Shown piece by piece: positions 1 through 10,121 of a stretch of DNA of 13,581 nt. The DNA comes from Flavipsychrobacter stenotrophus (GTDB lineage: Bacteria > Bacteroidota > Bacteroidia > Chitinophagales > Chitinophagaceae), in the NCBI GenBank assembly GCA_947372365.1, contig CANBTK010000009.1:1-13581 (forward strand). Direction: 5' to 3'. A program made the translations under genes and the position numbers. Under the pieces are notes generated by a model. That model worked only from the letters and a program-made list of their open reading frames with translations, ran no database searches and was not told the DNA's origin. Each line of letters begins with the position of its first letter. Positions within the stretch are counted from its first letter, which is position 1.

Positions 1-609
1 GGCAAAGCAAAGTACGAAACCGGGGCTGCCCATGGCACAGCAGGCATTGCGTTGGCAATAGCTTTGTATGGCATTGAATCCAAGTCAGATGAGCACCTGG
101 ATTTTGGTATAAAGTGTTTTAAGGAAATATACGACAACGGCAGGAGCGAGCAATGGCAACGCTATGTAATGAGCGTAGGGGTAAAGGTGAAGCAGCCTGC
201 GACTAATAATAATTGGTGCCATGGTGCCGCTGGTTACCTGTGGTGCGTAATTCAACTGCCTGAAGCTTACGATAGGCTGCAGAAAGAAATTGAGTGGACA
301 ATGTCGGTTTGCGCCAGCATATCGCACTTGTCTAACCCAACCTACTGCCACGGTATGGCCGGCTCGCTGGAACTATGGCGCATGGTAAACGCATCGCCAT
401 TGGGTACTGAGGTTACCCGGAATTGCTTTGAAAATACGTTGTACGAGCTGGTGAGCCTTGGCCAGGAGCATGAGGGTTTGGAGTTATTTGCAAGCGAGGA
501 CTCCAATACTTTTTCCCCCGACCTGTGGATTGGCTACCTGGGGCCAGTAAGTGCACTTGCCTTAACTAAGCAAAAATCAAGAGTGTCAATTTTAAATGCT
601 AAATGGTAA
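1..609 (+). CDS. LanC-type lanthionine cyclase, C-terminal part (5' end outside window)
   Basis: Only the last 202 residues are visible; the reading frame is open from base 1. LanC domains are alpha-toroids that bind one zinc ion and catalyse addition of cysteine thiols to dehydrated Ser/Thr, forming (methyl)lanthionine rings. Three diagnostic motifs occur in order, numbered from the window edge: GAAHGTAG (His11), NWCHGAAG (Cys73) and YCHGMAG (Cys116, His117). By comparison with NisC, Cys73, Cys116 and His117 would be the zinc ligands and His11 the conserved active-site histidine. A C-terminal LWIGYLGPVSALAL matches the usual closing helix motif. All key residues are present, so it should be active. 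It could be free-standing LanC (class I) or the C-terminal domain of a LanM/LanKC/LanL fusion; the missing 5' end decides this. It ends 4 bases before the next gene, so it is co-transcribed with the two FAD-synthetase-like genes. Confidence 0.87.
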   Translation, partial: GKAKYETGAAHGTAGIALAIALYGIESKSDEHLDFGIKCFKEIYDNGRSEQWQRYVMSVGVKVKQPATNNNWCHGAAGYLWCVIQLPEAYDRLQKEIEWTMSVCASISHLSNPTYCHGMAGSLELWRMVNASPLGTEVTRNCFENTLYELVSLGQEHEGLELFASEDSNTFSPDLWIGYLGPVSALALTKQKSRVSILNAKW

Positions 610-613
610 GGTT

Positions 614-1375
614 ATGGAAGCGAAAATATATGGTAGCCTTACAAGGCCCGCAGTACTTATAGTTGGGACTTGGGACCCATTTGTAGAAAATTATTTCCTT
701 CTGTTGGAGCACCTCAACCAATATTGCCAGAGTGCTGGATTCGATGCCCTGCCTATATTGCTGGAGCCTTCGCCCCAGCACCTGCTGCACAATGCAGTGC
801 TGCCCATATATGACAGCCCTGCTATGAGGCTTGCCCAGCTGAGAAGTAAAGTAAAGGGCGCAGTTGGCGTTTTTTCAATGGCTGAAAGCGAATTGGGCGA
901 TGGTGTTGAAGACTTCATGGAAGTGTTTTTCAAGCAGCAGGTGAAAATAGCTGAGCTTTGGCTATACGAGGGCCAAACAATGGGCCGGGGAGGCAAAAGC
1001 AACATCGCTATCCTTACCGAGACATGCGCTGAAATAGGCATAAAGGTAAAGACGATTCCAGGTGTGCTTAATTTTAAAGGTGTGGCACCGGAAGCGAAGC
1101 CGCTTTTAGGCAGTGGGCGCGTGGAGGAAGCAACAAAAATGGTAGGCCATGTGCCGCTATGGCAAAAGGGCGATGACGCCAATGAAAATATGCCTATAGG
1201 CTGGAAAAGCGGTTTGTATGAATACTGCCCGGTAAAGATGTTGCCGGATATGGGAGTGGAGTTAACGGGCCAGCCAGGCAAATTAACCATCTACCTTAAC
1301 AATAACGGAGCCACTGCTTTCGACTGGCCATGCCAGGGCCAGGATGTTATTGCAATAACAAAAATGCTGGAATAA
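614..1375 (+). CDS. Degenerate riboflavin kinase/FAD synthetase (RibF)-like protein, copy 1
   Basis: 253 residues. An in-frame ATG at 596 would overlap the LanC gene; ATG 614 is chosen because the paralogue downstream starts identically (MEAKIYG versus MECRLYG). The layout follows RibF: beta strand plus GTWDP (18-22) where RibF has GNFDGVHLGH; LEPSP (50-54) for the TFEPHP region; PIYDSPAMRLAQLRS (64-78) for the TxxxRLxLL region; AELWLYEGQTMGRG (113-126) for VGxDFxFGxxRxG; and LLGSGRVEEATKMVG (164-178), nearly the RibF helix after ISSTxxR. The C-terminal part (about 179-253) resembles a shortened flavokinase barrel. Both HxGH histidines, the DFxFG loop, the ISST serines and the PTAN motif are absent, so normal FAD synthesis is unlikely. 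Typical RibF is about 310 residues. The fold assignment is inference from these positional matches. Its place after LanC suggests a role in a RiPP pathway, perhaps binding a nucleotide, a flavin or the peptide. Confidence 0.72.
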   Translation: MEAKIYGSLTRPAVLIVGTWDPFVENYFLLLEHLNQYCQSAGFDALPILLEPSPQHLLHNAVLPIYDSPAMRLAQLRSKVKGAVGVFSMAESELGDGVEDFMEVFFKQQVKIAELWLYEGQTMGRGGKSNIAILTETCAEIGIKVKTIPGVLNFKGVAPEAKPLLGSGRVEEATKMVGHVPLWQKGDDANENMPIGWKSGLYEYCPVKMLPDMGVELTGQPGKLTIYLNNNGATAFDWPCQGQDVIAITKMLE

Positions 1376-1415
1376 AGCCCGGCATACAATCCCTCCACAT
1401 TTTTAAAATTACTTT

Positions 1416-2171
1416 ATGGAATGCCGCCTTTATGGGGAGCTTACCAAGCCTGCTGTAATGCTGGTTGGTACCTGGGACCCCCTTATCCCTAATTATTTTT
1501 CTTTGATTGAAAAGGCAAATGAGTACTGCGAAGCCTCGGGCTACGAGCTGCTGCTCATAATGCTGGACCCAATGCCAGCCGATTTCCTGAATAATAAGCA
1601 AAGCCCCATTTACGACTGCACCAGTGCCAGGGTGAAGCTTTTAAACCAGCAGTTTACTGGCGCTGTGTGTACAGTTGCAATGGGACCGGAAGATACCGCT
1701 GCTGGAGTGCATGGCTTTCTTCCCAAAATAAGTTCGCAATTCGGATTGGCTGAGCTTTGGCTGCGGCGGGGGCAGACCCTGGGGAGCGGCCCGCAAAACT
1801 CAGTAAGGGATATTAACGATTTATGCAGGGATCTAAACATCGTGTTTAAGATACTGGATACCGATGCTACGCTGGCAGGCACCGCTAATATTGTGCGGTT
1901 TAACCTGCAGAATGGGCACGTAAGCCTGGCCTCCGAGCTTGTAGGGCATTCGCCCTTATGGGAACGGCAGCTGCACGCAAATATCCCCATTGGCTGGAAG
2001 GCCGGGTACTACCAGTATTTCCCTGCGCGGTATTCTGCCGGCAATGATGTTGAAGTGGGGAAAGCGGGCGGCGTGTTAGAGGTATTTCACAATGAAGATG
2101 GCCATGCTGTTTTCAACTGGCCGGATAACAATATTGAGCTCATTACTATTTCTGAAATCATCTCAGGCTAG
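1416..2171 (+). CDS. Degenerate riboflavin kinase/FAD synthetase (RibF)-like protein, copy 2
   Basis: 251 residues, collinear with the preceding gene and clearly its paralogue: about half of the first 60 positions are identical by eye (YGELTKPAVMLVGTWDP against YGSLTRPAVLIVGTWDP), with lower similarity further on. It shows the RibF order of elements: GTWDP (18-22), LDPMP (50-54), PIYDCTSARVKLLNQ (64-78), AELWLRRGQTLGSG (112-125), then TANIVRFNLQNGHVSLASELVG (156-177), which aligns with RibF ISSTRIREAL-(x)-GDVEEAxxLLG and keeps the Arg161 position. The C-terminal IPIGWKAGYYQYFPARY aligns with the LPxxGVY strand of flavokinase. As in copy 1, both HxGH histidines (replaced by I and Y) and the PTAN motif are missing. 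The ATG at 1416 lies 40 bases after copy 1, with an A/T-rich leader and no promoter that I can see, so it is the last gene of the same operon. Two copies suggest a heterodimer or separate jobs; this is inference. Confidence 0.72.
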   Translation: MECRLYGELTKPAVMLVGTWDPLIPNYFSLIEKANEYCEASGYELLLIMLDPMPADFLNNKQSPIYDCTSARVKLLNQQFTGAVCTVAMGPEDTAAGVHGFLPKISSQFGLAELWLRRGQTLGSGPQNSVRDINDLCRDLNIVFKILDTDATLAGTANIVRFNLQNGHVSLASELVGHSPLWERQLHANIPIGWKAGYYQYFPARYSAGNDVEVGKAGGVLEVFHNEDGHAVFNWPDNNIELITISEIISG

Positions 2172-2700: not shown

Positions 2701-4752
2701 TTATTGCGGTGTAGTATATTCCCGGTCAACAAAGTACATTTTTAGCGGCCCTTTATTCTTGGCGATGATTTTGCCCCTGTAAGTACATGCGAACTGGCCT
2801 TTAATTAGTTCGTAGGTTACGCTCGATACGTTTATTTTGCCTTTTTCGCTGTGTTGTTCCATCCTTGCGGCTGTGTTTACGGTATCGCCCCATATGTCGT
2901 AAGCAAACTTTTTTACGCCCACTATGCCCGCTACTACGCAGCCGCTGTGTATGCCTATCCGGATATCAAAAGTGCCACTACCCATTTTTGCTTTACGTTC
3001 AGCCATAAAGTCCATTATTTCAAAGGCCGCCCTCACTATGTTTACAGCATGTTCCTTATCGGGCACCGGAAGCCCGGCCACAGCCATGTAGGCATCGCCA
3101 ATGGTTTTTATTTTTTCAATATTGTACCTGGTGCTTATTTCATCGAATGTTTTAAAGCAATGGTGCAGCTCATCTACCAACTCCTGTGGCATCATCCTTT
3201 CCCCGGCTATAGTAAAGTCTATAAAATCGGTAAACAGCACCGAAACATAGTCATAGAATTTTGCGGCTGATTCTCCATCATTTTTTAATTCTTCAGCCAC
3301 TTCCGATGGTAGTATATTTAACAAAAGGTCGTCGGCTTTCTTTTTTTCAGCTTTTAGTTCCAGGTGTTGTTTTTCCAGTTCCAGTTTTTGGGTTATTACC
3401 TGATGTGTACGTATCATTACTTCCCTTTCCAGTTCTTCTTGCCGGCCTTCAAGCAGCCTCTTTTTTTCCTGTTCCTGCTCCAGTGCATAGTCCGATAGAA
3501 CCTTTACTTTCTGTAATTGGGAGGAAAGGTTTTTGTTGATGCCCGCGAAGCTCCAGGCCAGGAAAACTGACATAGAGCCAGGCAGGCTCATGATTGCGGC
3601 AAAGCCGAACAGCTCCAGTATTTGCGCCGTGGCGGAACTGTCATCAAAGTCTTTGTTGTAGATAATCAGTATGATTATTGTAATGAAAAAGAACGAAAAG
3701 AAAAGGACGCCAAACCCAATTGTACGGGCTCCTTTTACCCTGTTATAAATCGCTTTTATGGTAAGCGTAACTGACTCTATCGTCACAATTGCAATAACCA
3801 CGGTAAATAATACTATGCCTCCAAATGTGTTCACTATTACCATAACAGACGGCAGGTAGGAAAGTGCGGCAATTATTTTGAACCGCTGCTTTTTTTTGCT
3901 GAACAACTCATTGATAAAGCCGCTTAGCGACAGGCATGCCGATGACACCGCGAAGGATATGATAAGGTAATTGTTAAGGATGATGTACGGGTTGGTGTTG
4001 TATTGGTTAAGCAATACAAGCAGGAATATCAGTGCAAGCGAAAAGCAGAAAATGCTGAAGAATAGGTTTGATTTTGCTGTTTTGTAATAGAGGTACAGCA
4101 ACAGGTGTAAAATGGATAAGGCAACGAAAACACCAAACATAAGTGTAAGCACAAAGGTAATGACCACTGCACGCAGGTGAAGTTTGCGAAAGCTCATTTC
4201 CGCGTCCTCAATTATTAGTGTGAAACCTGCAGTGTTGCGGTGGTAAATCTTCCTTATCCGGCGGGCATCGTAGTTGGCATACCTTACTGCCAGCAGGTGC
4301 GGTCCCCTATCTTGAAGCACTACAATAAACGGCGTTGATTTTGGGTTGCAGTTTTTAGAGCCTCCGTTAGGGGCAATGAGTCCAAACGAGGCTATTTTTT
4401 TTCCGTCAAGGAAAATTTCCGATGCGCCGGGATGCGATATTTTAAAGGCCATCGGGTGCATCACCATGTTCGTATCTACAGAGAAGTGAAGCCGGAACCA
4501 GCCAATGCTGTTAAAGCTGTCGGATGGCCGTTTGGGTTTATTACTGATGTTTAATTCCGTGTGGGTGACAGGCCATGCGGAATCAAAATAGTACGGCGAT
4601 GCAAACGCGGTAGAGTCCCCTTCATGAAAGAGCCAATTGTCCTTAACCGGCTTGCTCAGGCTGTCGGGGTTTATGTAAGTGGTAGGGTGTTTTTTCTGTG
4701 GGTATGCCAATAGGGGGAGTGCCAGCAGGAAGATTATTGGTAAGGTTCTCAT
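2701..4752 (-). CDS. Membrane-bound class III adenylate cyclase with periplasmic sensor domain
   Basis: 683 residues. Order of parts: signal peptide (about 1-18, RTLPIIFLLALPLLAYPQ); a beta-rich extracytoplasmic domain (about 38-185) with NWLFHEGDSTAF and GASEIFLDGKKIASFG, which resembles the galactose-binding-like sensor modules found before 7TM regions; about six or seven membrane segments (193-403); a charged coiled coil (about 410-475); and a cyclase catalytic domain (about 476-678). Metal-binding aspartates are Asp509 (LFTDF) and Asp553 (IGDAYM). Lys549 and Asp619 (YDIWG) are the pair that selects adenine, and Asn626/Arg630 (NTAAR) the transition-state residues. All are present, so it should make cAMP from ATP as a homodimer, with the product released in the cytoplasm. 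Nothing nearby is clearly cAMP-dependent, and it stands alone on its strand. The start is fixed by the signal peptide; I found no good promoter match upstream. Confidence 0.9.
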   Translation of the reverse strand: MRTLPIIFLLALPLLAYPQKKHPTTYINPDSLSKPVKDNWLFHEGDSTAFASPYYFDSAWPVTHTELNISNKPKRPSDSFNSIGWFRLHFSVDTNMVMHPMAFKISHPGASEIFLDGKKIASFGLIAPNGGSKNCNPKSTPFIVVLQDRGPHLLAVRYANYDARRIRKIYHRNTAGFTLIIEDAEMSFRKLHLRAVVITFVLTLMFGVFVALSILHLLLYLYYKTAKSNLFFSIFCFSLALIFLLVLLNQYNTNPYIILNNYLIISFAVSSACLSLSGFINELFSKKKQRFKIIAALSYLPSVMVIVNTFGGIVLFTVVIAIVTIESVTLTIKAIYNRVKGARTIGFGVLFFSFFFITIIILIIYNKDFDDSSATAQILELFGFAAIMSLPGSMSVFLAWSFAGINKNLSSQLQKVKVLSDYALEQEQEKKRLLEGRQEELEREVMIRTHQVITQKLELEKQHLELKAEKKKADDLLLNILPSEVAEELKNDGESAAKFYDYVSVLFTDFIDFTIAGERMMPQELVDELHHCFKTFDEISTRYNIEKIKTIGDAYMAVAGLPVPDKEHAVNIVRAAFEIMDFMAERKAKMGSGTFDIRIGIHSGCVVAGIVGVKKFAYDIWGDTVNTAARMEQHSEKGKINVSSVTYELIKGQFACTYRGKIIAKNKGPLKMYFVDREYTTPQ

Positions 4753-5040: not shown

Positions 5041-6270
5041 ATGAATATTGGTATTTACGTGCCGGGCCTTGGCGAGAACTATAAGGAAGAGTCTGTCTTA
5101 AAATACGCCACCCGGTTTATGTATGAAATAGACTGGAACCACCGGGATGCAGGCAATGTCTATATTTTGAAGCATGAGACAATGTTCCTGGGTTTTAATT
5201 CAAACAATAAGGAGCTCAATAAGCTCAGGACAATTAAGGTTTCAATTATTCAGCGGGGCGCCGGGAAAGAAGATACTGTGATCTACCGTTTTTACGACCT
5301 GCCGTACGAAAGCCTGCTTACCGATAAATATATCAACAGCAACATTTTCAGGAAGTCGTCGCTGCTGTTGCTTACCATTCTCAGGAAATTCCCGAAGATT
5401 TTTTTTAGCCTTTTTTCAAAAGTTGAAGCCAGTTACCTGTCGCTTAAAAAGAGGCTGCAGTCGTTTTATGCCGTTTTGTTGCTTATGGCATTAGCTATAG
5501 GTGGGGTTTTGTTAATCCCATCATTTGTTACGGTTACCAGCCAGATGGAAGCCTTGCCACCATGGGTAAATGGATTGTTTCAGAAGGCAATCAGCAACAC
5601 TTTCTGGGACGAAATATCGCATTGCATTATTGCGGGTTCACTTATTTTGTTCAGTGCGGCACCGCGGCTCAATAACTTTATACTCGCCCTTACTGCCAAG
5701 CTGGTGTGCATACACTATTATTTGCAGGTAGGGGAGCGCAAGCAATCTATTTTGGGGCACCTTGACCATTTGCTGGAGTATATCTGTGAGAATGAGGGTG
5801 AAGGGGCTACAGTGCAGCTGCATGCGTGCGATTTTGGGGCACTTATTTGCTACGACCTGCTCTTCCCGGCAGGCACAGTGCCTACCGAGCGCGTGCGGCA
5901 ACGGGTTACAGGCTTGTATACTGTAAGCTTCCCTTTCGAGTTCATTTTGTCTTACTACCCTTTGTATTTCAGTAACCGGGACGGGTGTATGAGCAATTAC
6001 CTGCAGAAATGGTACAATATTTATTCGTTGCCCGATTTTTTCAGTACCAATCTGGATGCAGAGCTTTTCAGGAAGTCAATTAATGCTGAAACCAGCACAT
6101 TTGGGCCCATTAACCTGAACTATGACATAGTAGAACGCGAGAGTAATATTTTCGATTTCCTGGCATTTTTCAGCCTGAAGTCGTACAAGTACTACTGGGA
6201 CGATACAACCGATGGTGCCAGCTGCCTGAGGCTGGTAGTGAGGTCGATGATAGCTGATAAATTGCTGTGA
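5041..6270 (+). CDS. Membrane alpha/beta-hydrolase-fold protein with altered nucleophile elbow
   Basis: 409 residues. It opens with a beta strand and IYVPGLGENY (5-14), like the first strand and oxyanion loop of lipases. Two hydrophobic segments (about 143-165 and 193-228) suggest membrane insertion in the middle of the chain. VQLHACDFGALICYDLL (258-274) looks like the nucleophile-elbow strand and helix, but where hydrolases have GxSxG it reads HACDFG, placing Asp264 (or Cys263) at the nucleophile. KWYNIYSLPDFFST (323-336) matches the W-x-N-x-Y-x-x-x-D acid region of DUF676-like lipases, and a late YKYYWDD (382-388) matches the usual H-x-x-YW site without the histidine. So it may use a different nucleophile, or be a catalytically dead relative that binds a lipid. 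It is the first of three genes in a row on the plus strand, 28 bases before the M15 peptidase. The fold call is inference; no family name is claimed. Confidence 0.55.
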   Translation: MNIGIYVPGLGENYKEESVLKYATRFMYEIDWNHRDAGNVYILKHETMFLGFNSNNKELNKLRTIKVSIIQRGAGKEDTVIYRFYDLPYESLLTDKYINSNIFRKSSLLLLTILRKFPKIFFSLFSKVEASYLSLKKRLQSFYAVLLLMALAIGGVLLIPSFVTVTSQMEALPPWVNGLFQKAISNTFWDEISHCIIAGSLILFSAAPRLNNFILALTAKLVCIHYYLQVGERKQSILGHLDHLLEYICENEGEGATVQLHACDFGALICYDLLFPAGTVPTERVRQRVTGLYTVSFPFEFILSYYPLYFSNRDGCMSNYLQKWYNIYSLPDFFSTNLDAELFRKSINAETSTFGPINLNYDIVERESNIFDFLAFFSLKSYKYYWDDTTDGASCLRLVVRSMIADKLL

Positions 6271-6298
6271 TTAAGTATTTAAAATACCTGCAAATAGA

Positions 6299-6817
6299 AT
6301 GCAAATTCAATTTGTTACTTTATCTGGTAACTTATTCGCTATGGTAGATTTTTTTGAAATTATGGTGTGCCCGGCTGAGTTTTCGGGCCATCCCCAGCAA
6401 ATTTTACTGGACAGGTACGGCGACCCTCTTTCACAAGGGTGGGGCGCAAAGTGGCTGGTGAACTGGAAGGTAAAAGGGTGCTTCAGTTGGTTTCCAGCCG
6501 ACGCCATTTGTATTCATAAAGATTTTCAGCCCAGGTTGTACAATGCATTCGTGCAACTGGAAGGGGAGGGGTTGCATAACGAGATAATTTCTTTCGACGA
6601 AGGGTATGGTATCCGCTTTATCAGCGGCAGCTCTTCAGTGCTTTCAGTGCACAGTTGGGGTGCCGCCATTGACCTGAATGCTGACGATAACCCCTTGGGT
6701 AGTGTGGGCAACTGGAGCCTTGATTTTATAAGTGTTATGCGGCAGAACGGTGTGTTTGCTGGCCAGGAATGGACCGGGCGTAAAGACCCCATGCACTTTG
6801 CAATGGTCAATGGCTAA
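6299..6817 (+). CDS. M15-family metallopeptidase (L,D- or D,D-peptidase of peptidoglycan)
   Basis: 172 residues. SVHSWGAAIDLN (116-127) is the M15 motif SxHxxGxAxD, giving zinc ligands His118 and Asp125. EWTGRKDPMHF (157-167) supplies the third ligand His166 and the catalytic Asp163, as in phage endolysins of the Ply500/VanY group. All four are intact, so it should cleave peptide crosslinks or stems of peptidoglycan. The usual Glu after MHF is Ala here. The protein is close to the size of a lone catalytic domain, with no wall-binding domain and no signal peptide, which is odd for an enzyme acting on the periplasmic wall: delivery by another system, lysis, or a cytoplasmic role would be needed. 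ATG 6341 (MVDFFEIMV) is an alternative start that would shorten it by 14 residues. It lies between the hydrolase-like gene and an unrecognised gene. Confidence 0.85.
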   Translation: MQIQFVTLSGNLFAMVDFFEIMVCPAEFSGHPQQILLDRYGDPLSQGWGAKWLVNWKVKGCFSWFPADAICIHKDFQPRLYNAFVQLEGEGLHNEIISFDEGYGIRFISGSSSVLSVHSWGAAIDLNADDNPLGSVGNWSLDFISVMRQNGVFAGQEWTGRKDPMHFAMVNG

Positions 6818-7578: not shown

Positions 7579-7608
7579 AAAATAAGCGGCTGGTTAGCCG
7601 CTTATTTT
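7579..7608. terminator. Bidirectional intrinsic terminator between converging genes
   Basis: AAAATAAGCGGCT (7579-7591) pairs perfectly with AGCCGCTTATTTT (7596-7608): 13 pairs around the 4-base loop GGTT. The A-run on the left and T-run on the right make it work in both directions. It starts 8 bases after the plus-strand stop, and the minus-strand WYL gene ends inside it: its stop codon (7594-7596) covers two loop bases and the first base of the right arm. Confidence 0.9.
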
Positions 7609-8610
7609 ATACCCCAGGGATAGCTTTTCGGCTATCTCGGCTATCTCCGATACCAGTTGTGTGGGCGATAACACTTTAACATGCTGCCCGTAACCCAGTA
7701 ATACGTCAATGAACTCCTGGTTGATGATTATGTTTAGCGATATTTCAAGTTTGCCGTTGGCGTGGTGTTTTATAATTTTTTGTGAATGGTGTATGGGGTA
7801 GGCGAGGATGTGGTGCGATTTTTGCTCGCTGAATATGAGCCTGATGTTGCAGACGTCGTCATTGGGTTTTGAAACGCCGATTATGTTGTCGAAATAGTTG
7901 TCTATAGATGGCGCGGCATCGGAGAAATAAGTGAGTTTTGAAATCTTTATTTCAGCCATGCGGCCCAGCTCAAATGAACCAATTGTTTGCAATTCGTCGC
8001 AATAGCCCACTATGTACCATACTTTGTCATATTCTTTGAGCAGGTAGGGGTGCAGGTTATAGGCTTCAGGCTCTTTTGCGTCGTCGGTGCTGTAGGCTAT
8101 TTTTAGTACGTTTTTCCTTATAATGGCATAGTAAATGTCTTCCAGGGTTTCTTTGCCGGGTGCATTTTGGTCGTTGCCAAAAATAATTATGTTCTTGTGC
8201 TCCACAACATTGAAGTTGTACCTCGATTCCAGTTTGCTTACAATGTCTGCAATTTCATCGGCAATGGTAAAGCCCTTTATCTGGCGGAGTACCTGTACGG
8301 CTATATTTAATTTGGCTATTTCGTCCTCGTTTATCGGTATGTTCTTTATTGAAAAATCGGGGTCATCGTAACGGTAGTAATATGCTTTACCAACTTTGTA
8401 CATTTCTATAGGTGCGTTGCACTCAGATTGCATGTTTTCGAGGTCATACCTTAACTGGCTGATGGAGATGATATGCCCGTCGCCAAATTGTAGCTCAAGG
8501 CGGCGGTTTATGTACTTAAGGATTTCGGCTTTTGACCACTTCTTTTTAGAATTGCGCAGGCAGGAATCAATTATCTCGAACCGGAATCTGGCAGCTTTAT
8601 TTACAGGCAT
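7594..8610 (-). CDS. WYL-domain transcriptional regulator
   Basis: 338 residues. The N-terminal part (about 8-60, FEIIDSCLRNSKKKWSKAEI and ISQLRYDLENM) fits a winged helix-turn-helix. Residues 88-150 are the helical linker usual in this family. The WYL core is about 152-222, with the name-giving residues as Trp198-Tyr199-Ile200 (KVWYIVGY) and the FELGRM strand (213-218). A WCX-like C-terminal extension follows (about 250-335, IRLIF to HVKVLSPTQLVSEIAE). WYL domains bind ligands, often nucleotides or nucleic acid, and such regulators frequently control stress or defence genes. Here the gene converges on the three-gene group and shares its terminator, but sharing an end does not show control. 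No palindromic operator is evident upstream of its start, where the sequence is very AT-rich. Confidence 0.88.
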   Translation of the reverse strand: MPVNKAARFRFEIIDSCLRNSKKKWSKAEILKYINRRLELQFGDGHIISISQLRYDLENMQSECNAPIEMYKVGKAYYYRYDDPDFSIKNIPINEDEIAKLNIAVQVLRQIKGFTIADEIADIVSKLESRYNFNVVEHKNIIIFGNDQNAPGKETLEDIYYAIIRKNVLKIAYSTDDAKEPEAYNLHPYLLKEYDKVWYIVGYCDELQTIGSFELGRMAEIKISKLTYFSDAAPSIDNYFDNIIGVSKPNDDVCNIRLIFSEQKSHHILAYPIHHSQKIIKHHANGKLEISLNIIINQEFIDVLLGYGQHVKVLSPTQLVSEIAEIAEKLSLGYKISG

Positions 8611-9389: not shown

Positions 9390-10121
9390 CTAGTTTATAA
9401 GCGGCGGGGGCAAATACCCCTTAATAATCCATATAGATTCAATGAGGCTGTAATCGAGGTGAATGGCGGGGCATGACGGGTTGAGCGGGGTAAGGTGCAG
9501 CTTGCTCGGTTGGGCTGATGCTTCAATTTTGTAAAAGAGCTTGCGCCCATCGGTTAGGGCCACCATATATAATAACCCGACTTCTAAAAACTCCTGCCAG
9601 TTGGCTACCTGCTTAACAAACAGCCACGATTCTTTAGGTACCCTGGTTTCAAGGGTAATGGCGTGGCATTGCTCCACCTCGCAGCCCACATATGCAGGGA
9701 TATTGGCTATAAAGCAGGGGCGGGCATCGTCGGTAACCCTGCCTGCCATTTCTTTTAATGCCTTAAAGCTGTTGTAAAACGCAGGTGAGTTAGCCGGGCT
9801 ATAATGCTTGTTGCCGTCAGGCTCGTGTACTACAGATGAGTGCGGCGTTTTGTTATATGGGCCGGGTACGCTTATTGGGACCGGGTTTTCTTCAGGGTTT
9901 ACCAGCATAACGCCGCGGTTATTCAGCAGCCAGTCAATATTTAATTCTACAAACTTGTTTGATATGGCTTGAATAATATCAAGGCTGGGTTTATTCTTCG
10001 CATTTCTTAACAGCCGGTATATTTTCTCAGGGTTGTCATACCCCAATTCCAGCGAAAAGCCGCTGGCATTAAGGTTTTTGAAGTTAATGAACTCCTGTAA
10101 GCGCGAATTAAAGGTACCCAT
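9390..10121 (-). CDS. CI-like repressor: HTH domain plus S24/LexA-type C-terminal domain
   Basis: 243 residues. Residues 4-70 form an XRE/CI-type helix-turn-helix: RLQEFINFKNLNASGFS, then NPEKIYRLLRNAKNKPSLDIIQAIS, closing with INIDWLLNNRG-type residues as is usual in Bacteroidota. A Pro-rich linker (76-110) leads to a C-terminal S24-like beta domain (about 138-238), recognised from YMVALTDGRKLFYKI (185-199) and the closing SIWIIKGYL strand. Lys198 sits at the catalytic lysine position, but the GDSM loop with the nucleophile serine is not recognisable (CEVEQCHAI, 147-155), so RecA-stimulated self-cleavage seems unlikely; it may respond to another signal. The gene is divergent from a small gene, with tandem palindromes between them that are its likely operators. 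Such repressors usually guard phage or mobile genes, but no phage genes are seen here. Confidence 0.8.
   Translation of the reverse strand: MGTFNSRLQEFINFKNLNASGFSLELGYDNPEKIYRLLRNAKNKPSLDIIQAISNKFVELNIDWLLNNRGVMLVNPEENPVPISVPGPYNKTPHSSVVHEPDGNKHYSPANSPAFYNSFKALKEMAGRVTDDARPCFIANIPAYVGCEVEQCHAITLETRVPKESWLFVKQVANWQEFLEVGLLYMVALTDGRKLFYKIEASAQPSKLHLTPLNPSCPAIHLDYSLIESIWIIKGYLPPPLIN

Follow-up and report, generated by a model that had tools for sequence, protein, structure and literature searches.

Flavin-related proteins occur in lanthipeptide clusters, among them the LanD-type flavoproteins, and both LanD and LanJB belong to families other than RibF, with folds that are not of the nucleotidyltransferase type. 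A survey (PMC7268733) notes that several class IV clusters contain genes for FAD-dependent oxidoreductases. In Corynebacterium ammoniagenes RibF, as described in PMC3509593, substitution of H28, H31 or N125 abolishes the adenylylation of FMN (<0.1 per min) but not its binding, with Kd values of 6.1-18 vs 7.8 µM for the HxGH mutants. The PxP loop (P56 and P58 in the same protein) shapes the isoalloxazine site and, according to PMC6829536, is generally conserved in FAD synthetases and not in other nucleotidyltransferases. Within the open-licence literature, no title among the matches listed links RibF-type proteins to lanthipeptides or RiPPs, the term 'riboflavin kinase' is absent from the lanthipeptide papers among the matches listed, and nothing was found for class IV lanthipeptides combined with Chloroflexi.

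The window, that is, the whole stretch of 13,581 bases analysed here, opens contig C9 of a fragmented genome (G000; 3.0 Mb in 568 contigs, 70.8% complete). It begins with a same-strand row of the end of a LanC frame (1-609, +), a RibF-like gene that we call A (614-1375, +; 253 aa from a conserved ATG) and its tandem paralogue B (1416-2171, +; 251 aa). The 4-base gap between LanC and the first paralogue given in the first-pass annotation is indeed there when the homologous ATG of A at 614 is set against the LanC stop at 609; the longest reading of A opens at 596 and would from there overlap the LanC frame. A terminator-like hairpin of 15 pairs lies 3' of B (2422-2454, +) and is a possible operon end, the pattern scan having returned 2 sites where 1.1 (s.d. 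1.0) are expected, which is near chance and alone no evidence of function. The next large frame after B (2701-4752, -) is on the opposite strand and fuses a 7TMR-DISM receptor domain (PF07695, E value 1.7e-9) to an adenylate/guanylate cyclase domain (PF00211, 4.5e-52). Further along the window are a 409-aa frame with no family above cut-off followed by an M15-type peptidase (5041-6817, +; PF13539, 2.3e-9), a WYL/WCX-domain protein that is probably a regulator (7594-8610, -) and a 243-aa frame without a Pfam match (9390-10121, -), whose N-terminal start looks by eye like a phage-repressor type of DNA-binding segment.

The LanC frame encodes 202 aa, is open at the contig edge and matches PF05147 with an E value of 3e-18 over profile positions 157-310 of 350. 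As the window opens contig C9, the upstream part of this gene is missing rather than absent. The zinc motifs on which the earlier assignment relied are all in place: GAAHG, whose His (31-33, +) we take to be in the LanC active-site region; WCHGA, whose Cys-His (217-222, +, in WCHGAAG) presumably includes the first zinc Cys; and YCHG, whose Cys-His (346-351, +, in YCHGMAG) we assume to supply further zinc ligands. The His and the CHG motifs coincide with those of solved LanC-like chains in weak alignments to 3t33 (E value 7e-4) and LicM2 (0.018), and NisC is also among the structure-chain matches (0.92). By its sequence, the fragment qualifies as a LanC-like cyclase, its LanC domain having a His and two Cys as putative zinc ligands.

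The association of such a domain with a RibF-like gene recurs in one further genome (G692), a single contig of 6.7 Mb from another genus of the same bacterial family. There, three genes stand in a row and encode a 119-aa precursor-like peptide, an 890-aa synthetase and, last, a RibF-like protein, the gene of which overlaps the synthetase end by 11 bases. The synthetase has RamC_N (lyase, E value 7.5e-28), protein kinase and LanC domains in one chain, and its best model is that of class IV LanL (NCBIfam NF038150), where its 293.6 bits fall short of the curated cut-off, 650. The precursor candidate has clustered Cys, Ser and Thr and no Pfam match. No transporter was recognised among seven scanned neighbours; upstream are the end of a UvrD-type helicase and, 2.5 kb from the precursor gene, an M16 peptidase (L027:1823-4609, -). 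Downstream, 7.7 kb from the RibF-like gene and on the same strand as it, is a flavin-containing amine oxidoreductase (PF01593, E value 2.1e-60; L026:5587-6879, -), with three opposite-strand genes between it and the operon. Both the M16 peptidase and the amine oxidoreductase lie outside the row and could matter for peptide maturation.

Residues 686-886 of this LanL-like synthetase are the best match of the window fragment (E value 1.9e-34, 35% identity), and when the fragment was compared by blastp with the genes called in 20 RamC_N neighbourhoods, nothing else had an E value below 0.5. Because that best match is a lyase-kinase-LanC chain, the fragment is probably the tail of a LanL-like lyase-kinase-LanC synthetase; of the cyclase that the first-pass annotation placed before the pair, the LanC domain stands, whereas its stand-alone nature most likely does not. 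The NCBIfam scan scores the fragment higher as LanM (60.5 bits) than as LanL (45.9 bits), and we prefer a LanL tail despite this, to stand-alone LanC as well as to LanM, given the domain make-up of its relative and that the relative's best model is LanL; for the window itself LanM keeps some likelihood. The rest of the window's genome, which is 71% complete, yielded no lyase-kinase N-terminal part of a synthetase, and the locus is cut at the contig start.

How far does the linkage extend? Within the window's bacterial family, 15 of 394 genomes have RamC_N domains, at 20 places in total, and all 20 neighbourhoods were covered, two of them on contigs of just 6 and 8 kb. A RibF-like gene adjoins one of the 20; within the stretch examined, the other 19 have none, so synthetases of this sort generally do not need it. 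Among the RamC_N proteins of the family, paired WCHG/YCHG motifs are found only in the G692 synthetase, and when that LanL-like protein was searched against 296 genomes of the phylum at a stringent E value of 1e-30 or below, nothing but the window fragment was returned. Together, the 19 loci without the gene and the confinement of the paired motifs tie the RibF-like family to a rare zinc-type lineage and not to lanthipeptide synthetases at large. The expectation that these genes would accompany LanC-type cyclases in other Bacteroidota is borne out in another genus, but in that one further genome only, and within its genus the synthetase and the RibF-like gene are both present in one of six genomes. 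Six of the 19 further RamC_N loci (L051-L069) encode short proteins of 449-489 aa that seem to have no cyclase domain; at eight of the 19 the directly adjoining gene encodes a hydrophobic protein of 147-162 aa, which by eye resembles MauE/DoxX, and several of the loci have small exported-looking peptides encoded nearby, possibly a separate kind of system.

A and B are 36% identical over 253 positions (E value 5e-64), and both have the GTWDP (665-679 in A and 1467-1481 in B, +), E/DPxP, AELWL..GQT.G and GxVxxA..(L/M)VG elements, which bears out their description as tandem paralogues that keep the order of RibF elements. In the alignment, GTWDP of A is the GxFDGxHxGH site of RibF minus its histidines. 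As single sequences the two proteins give weak evidence of RibF, with E values of 0.0065 and 0.1 to Pfam FAD_syn, below cut-off, and of 1.2e-6 and 0.0057 to the best NCBIfam FAD synthetase model, far under cut-off. Other family members, P0015 and P0014 among them, exceed the FAD_syn cut-off. A profile built from 8 family members reaches RibF in genomes of the Bacteroidota phylum with E values down to 4.6e-18, one built from 13 members reaches Corynebacterium RibF at 1.5e-14, both well beyond chance, and the AlphaFold models of A (pLDDT 88.4) and B (pLDDT 87.1) match solved FAD synthetases across both domains. The similarity to RibF proposed from the letters alone thus came through in profile and predicted structure for both proteins, which by predicted fold and ancestry belong to the RibF superfamily. 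PF01687 (riboflavin kinase) has no match in the 10 of 13 family members that were scanned (A, B and 8 others).

The residues that make RibF an enzyme have fared differently from the fold. In an alignment of the 13 family members with 21 RibF from the searched genomes, the first His of HxGH is present in none of the 13 and the second in five, against both in 21 of 21 RibF; the position of N125 is G, R, H or K throughout the family, against D in 20 RibF and S in one; and in xSSTxxR the first Ser is found in 0/13 and the second in 4/13, with R in seven members and K in three at the Arg position. The PTAN columns of the flavokinase motif GxPTAN are not kept across the 13 members either. As these catalytic motifs are gone, A and B would be neither working flavokinases nor working FAD synthetases, and they very likely no longer make FMN or FAD. 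What survives, then, is the flavokinase/FAD-synthetase fold named in the first-pass annotation and very likely not the working enzyme. The family also has invariants of its own, W20, R72, Q121, W197, Y202 and W238-P239, in 13 of 13 members.

The RibF-like family is very rare. Searches of 5.8 billion proteins, the last of which was limited to scoring the 7,992 candidates with the most words in common, yielded at least twelve members including the two of the window, and a thirteenth came from the genome search; by source records, P0013 is from Dehalococcoidia and P0015 from a Chloroflexota MAG. The profile search matched only the genome of the window and G692 among the 394 genomes of the bacterial family (E ≤ 1e-15), and the former alone among 396 genomes of the order (E ≤ 1e-22). 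Among 99 relatives, six further genomes were matched and all six sequences (L003-L008) carry RibF motifs. Among 395 genomes of the phylum (E ≤ 1e-12), 43 further genomes were matched, of which 14 were aligned (L010-L023) and carry RibF motifs and 29 were called RibF from frame length (at least 311 aa) and low score only. The relative, phylum and order samples overlap and their E value limits differ. Scans of genome contigs by short exact patterns gave no relative of A or B. As for carriage as mobile cargo, plasmid matches were nil for three family proteins and relatives in IMG/VR were nil, and the idea was rejected. The distant members P0009 and P0012-P0015 keep the second HxGH His and have a C-terminal GPxD stretch in common, and may form a subfamily apart, with a different partner.

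In an IQ-TREE phylogeny, the RibF-like family is split from the 21 RibF with a support of 100/100. P0002 falls beside B (98/96) and P0005-P0008 fall beside A (89/95, slightly short of the program's star), and the single copy of G692 sits on a very long branch, its position inside the family being unsure. The sources of P0002 and P0005 have longest contigs of equal length (11,558), from which we infer that both genes are on one contig. Given that shared length and their places beside B and A in the tree, a second lineage probably has such a tandem pair as well, and the duplication appears to predate the split from it.

What could such proteins do? Our best explanation, held tentatively, is that A and B are RibF-derived accessory proteins of a rare zinc-type LanL that act as binding partners of the synthetase or of its peptide and not in flavin making. 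They are likely members of a lanthipeptide operon, and would be the last genes of a row in which a lyase-kinase-LanC synthetase from the rare, zinc-motif-bearing LanL-like lineage is the main enzyme. Descended from a bifunctional RibF, they lack its residues for adenylylating FMN and phosphorylating riboflavin but retain both domains of the predicted fold and a cleft that is altered yet conserved (W20, P52, P54, R72, Q121, G124, W197, Y202 and W238-P239). The old substrate cleft of the pair, or of the single copy in G692, may be a binding site for the synthetase, its precursor peptide or some small ligand, and this binding would help the lyase-kinase-cyclase act on its substrate. Against this reading stand the size of the linkage, which comprises two loci (the window and the one in G692), one of them cut at the contig edge; the 19 of 20 RamC_N loci of the family without the gene; the precursor-like gene of G692, which has no match in the 71%-complete genome of the window at an E value of 1 or below; and the conserved W, Q and R, which could equally form a new catalytic site. 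A bolder version, rather unlikely in our estimate, is that the family has been re-tooled into a dedicated zinc-type LanL component that modifies the peptide, or enables its modification, by nucleotidyl, phosphate or flavin chemistry, some lineages having two specialised copies in tandem; a modification step of that kind is not known to us from any lanthipeptide.

That A and B instead hold FMN or FAD for a flavin-dependent peptide step, for instance as users of the cofactor or as its suppliers to an oxidase or decarboxylase, is unlikely. The prolines of the isoalloxazine site (P52 and P54; PMC6829536) are retained in 13 of 13 members, and HxGH mutants of RibF still bind FMN; both agree with flavin holding, as do the amine oxidoreductase on the same strand downstream in G692 and the FAD-dependent oxidoreductase genes of several class IV clusters (PMC7268733). 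However, three opposite-strand genes part that oxidoreductase from the operon, and of the columns that are Phe in all 21 RibF, position 50 (CaFADS F54) is L or I in 13/13 members, position 123 (F128) is not Phe in 12/13 and position 89 is not Phe in 9/13, changes that speak against ordinary flavin binding. At the pocket position 58 (F62), family members and all 21 RibF alike have aliphatic residues, which makes it uninformative.

More doubtful still is that A and B are new active transferases in which a replaced site (W20, D21, R72 and Q121) moves a nucleotide or phosphate to a peptide or small molecule. The changes at old active-site positions are fixed, Q121 standing in 13/13 members for a His in 21/21 RibF, W20 in 13/13 for F or Y, and D21 in 12/13 with E in one, and the second HxGH His is kept in five of the 13. 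The first HxGH His, essential in C. ammoniagenes RibF (PMC3509593), is nevertheless lost in all 13, and the SS of xSSTxxR is also lost. A role in self-protection or product handling, with A and B binding the finished peptide, is improbable: the two genes are at the operon end and no ABC transporter or immunity gene is among the 7 scanned neighbours in G692, a subset of the neighbours, but by eye neither A nor B shows a signal peptide or a membrane segment. To our knowledge, no lanthipeptide immunity protein has a RibF-like fold.

It is very improbable that the linkage is accidental and A and B are decaying RibF duplicates. Rarity of the family and single-sequence scores under the Pfam cut-off would fit decay, whereas the frames are open and 18 columns are invariant across very divergent members, the adjacency is found in two genera with the duplication apparently retained in two lineages, P0015 and P0014 score above the FAD_syn cut-off, and the family forms one side of the 100/100 branch. 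Scarcely conceivable is an ordinary RibF (riboflavin kinase/FAD synthetase), which the shared two-domain fold would allow and which is rejected on the absent catalytic motifs and on the normal RibF on contig C385 of the same genome (E value 3.3e-44; G692 likewise has one elsewhere), with the ribF model TIGR00083 giving B 12.5 bits against a cut-off of 184.35 and not listing A among its matches.

The pairing of RibF-derived proteins with a peptide-cyclising enzyme in two bacteria suggests a rare, perhaps undescribed helper in the making of a modified peptide. If true, a family of RibF ancestry fixed beside a LanL-like synthetase would add an unexpected partner to these enzymes, provide genome mining with an entry point to a rare lineage and show cleanly how an enzyme of cofactor synthesis can become a component of peptide biosynthesis.

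Among the closest known systems, the FMN reductase LanJB (PMC7268733) is a flavin-related protein of lanthipeptide clusters. With class IV LanL, the G692 neighbour has in common the RamC_N lyase, the kinase and the zinc-motif LanC domain, but it scores below the curated NF038150 cut-off, and the window shows the LanC end alone. The other RamC_N (LanKC-like) proteins of the bacterial family, at 19 loci, have the RamC_N domain in common with the G692 synthetase, yet lack the paired CHG zinc motifs and a RibF-like neighbour. With bifunctional RibF (C. ammoniagenes 2x0k, Thermotoga maritima TM379), the family of A and B has in common the predicted two-domain fold, the order of the elements, the PxP loop, G124 and, in 12 of 13 members, GxxD of the first loop, whereas it is without HxGH, Asn/Asp125, the SS of xSSTxxR and the flavokinase PTAN, and has a shorter C-terminal part and its own invariant W, Q, Y and WP.
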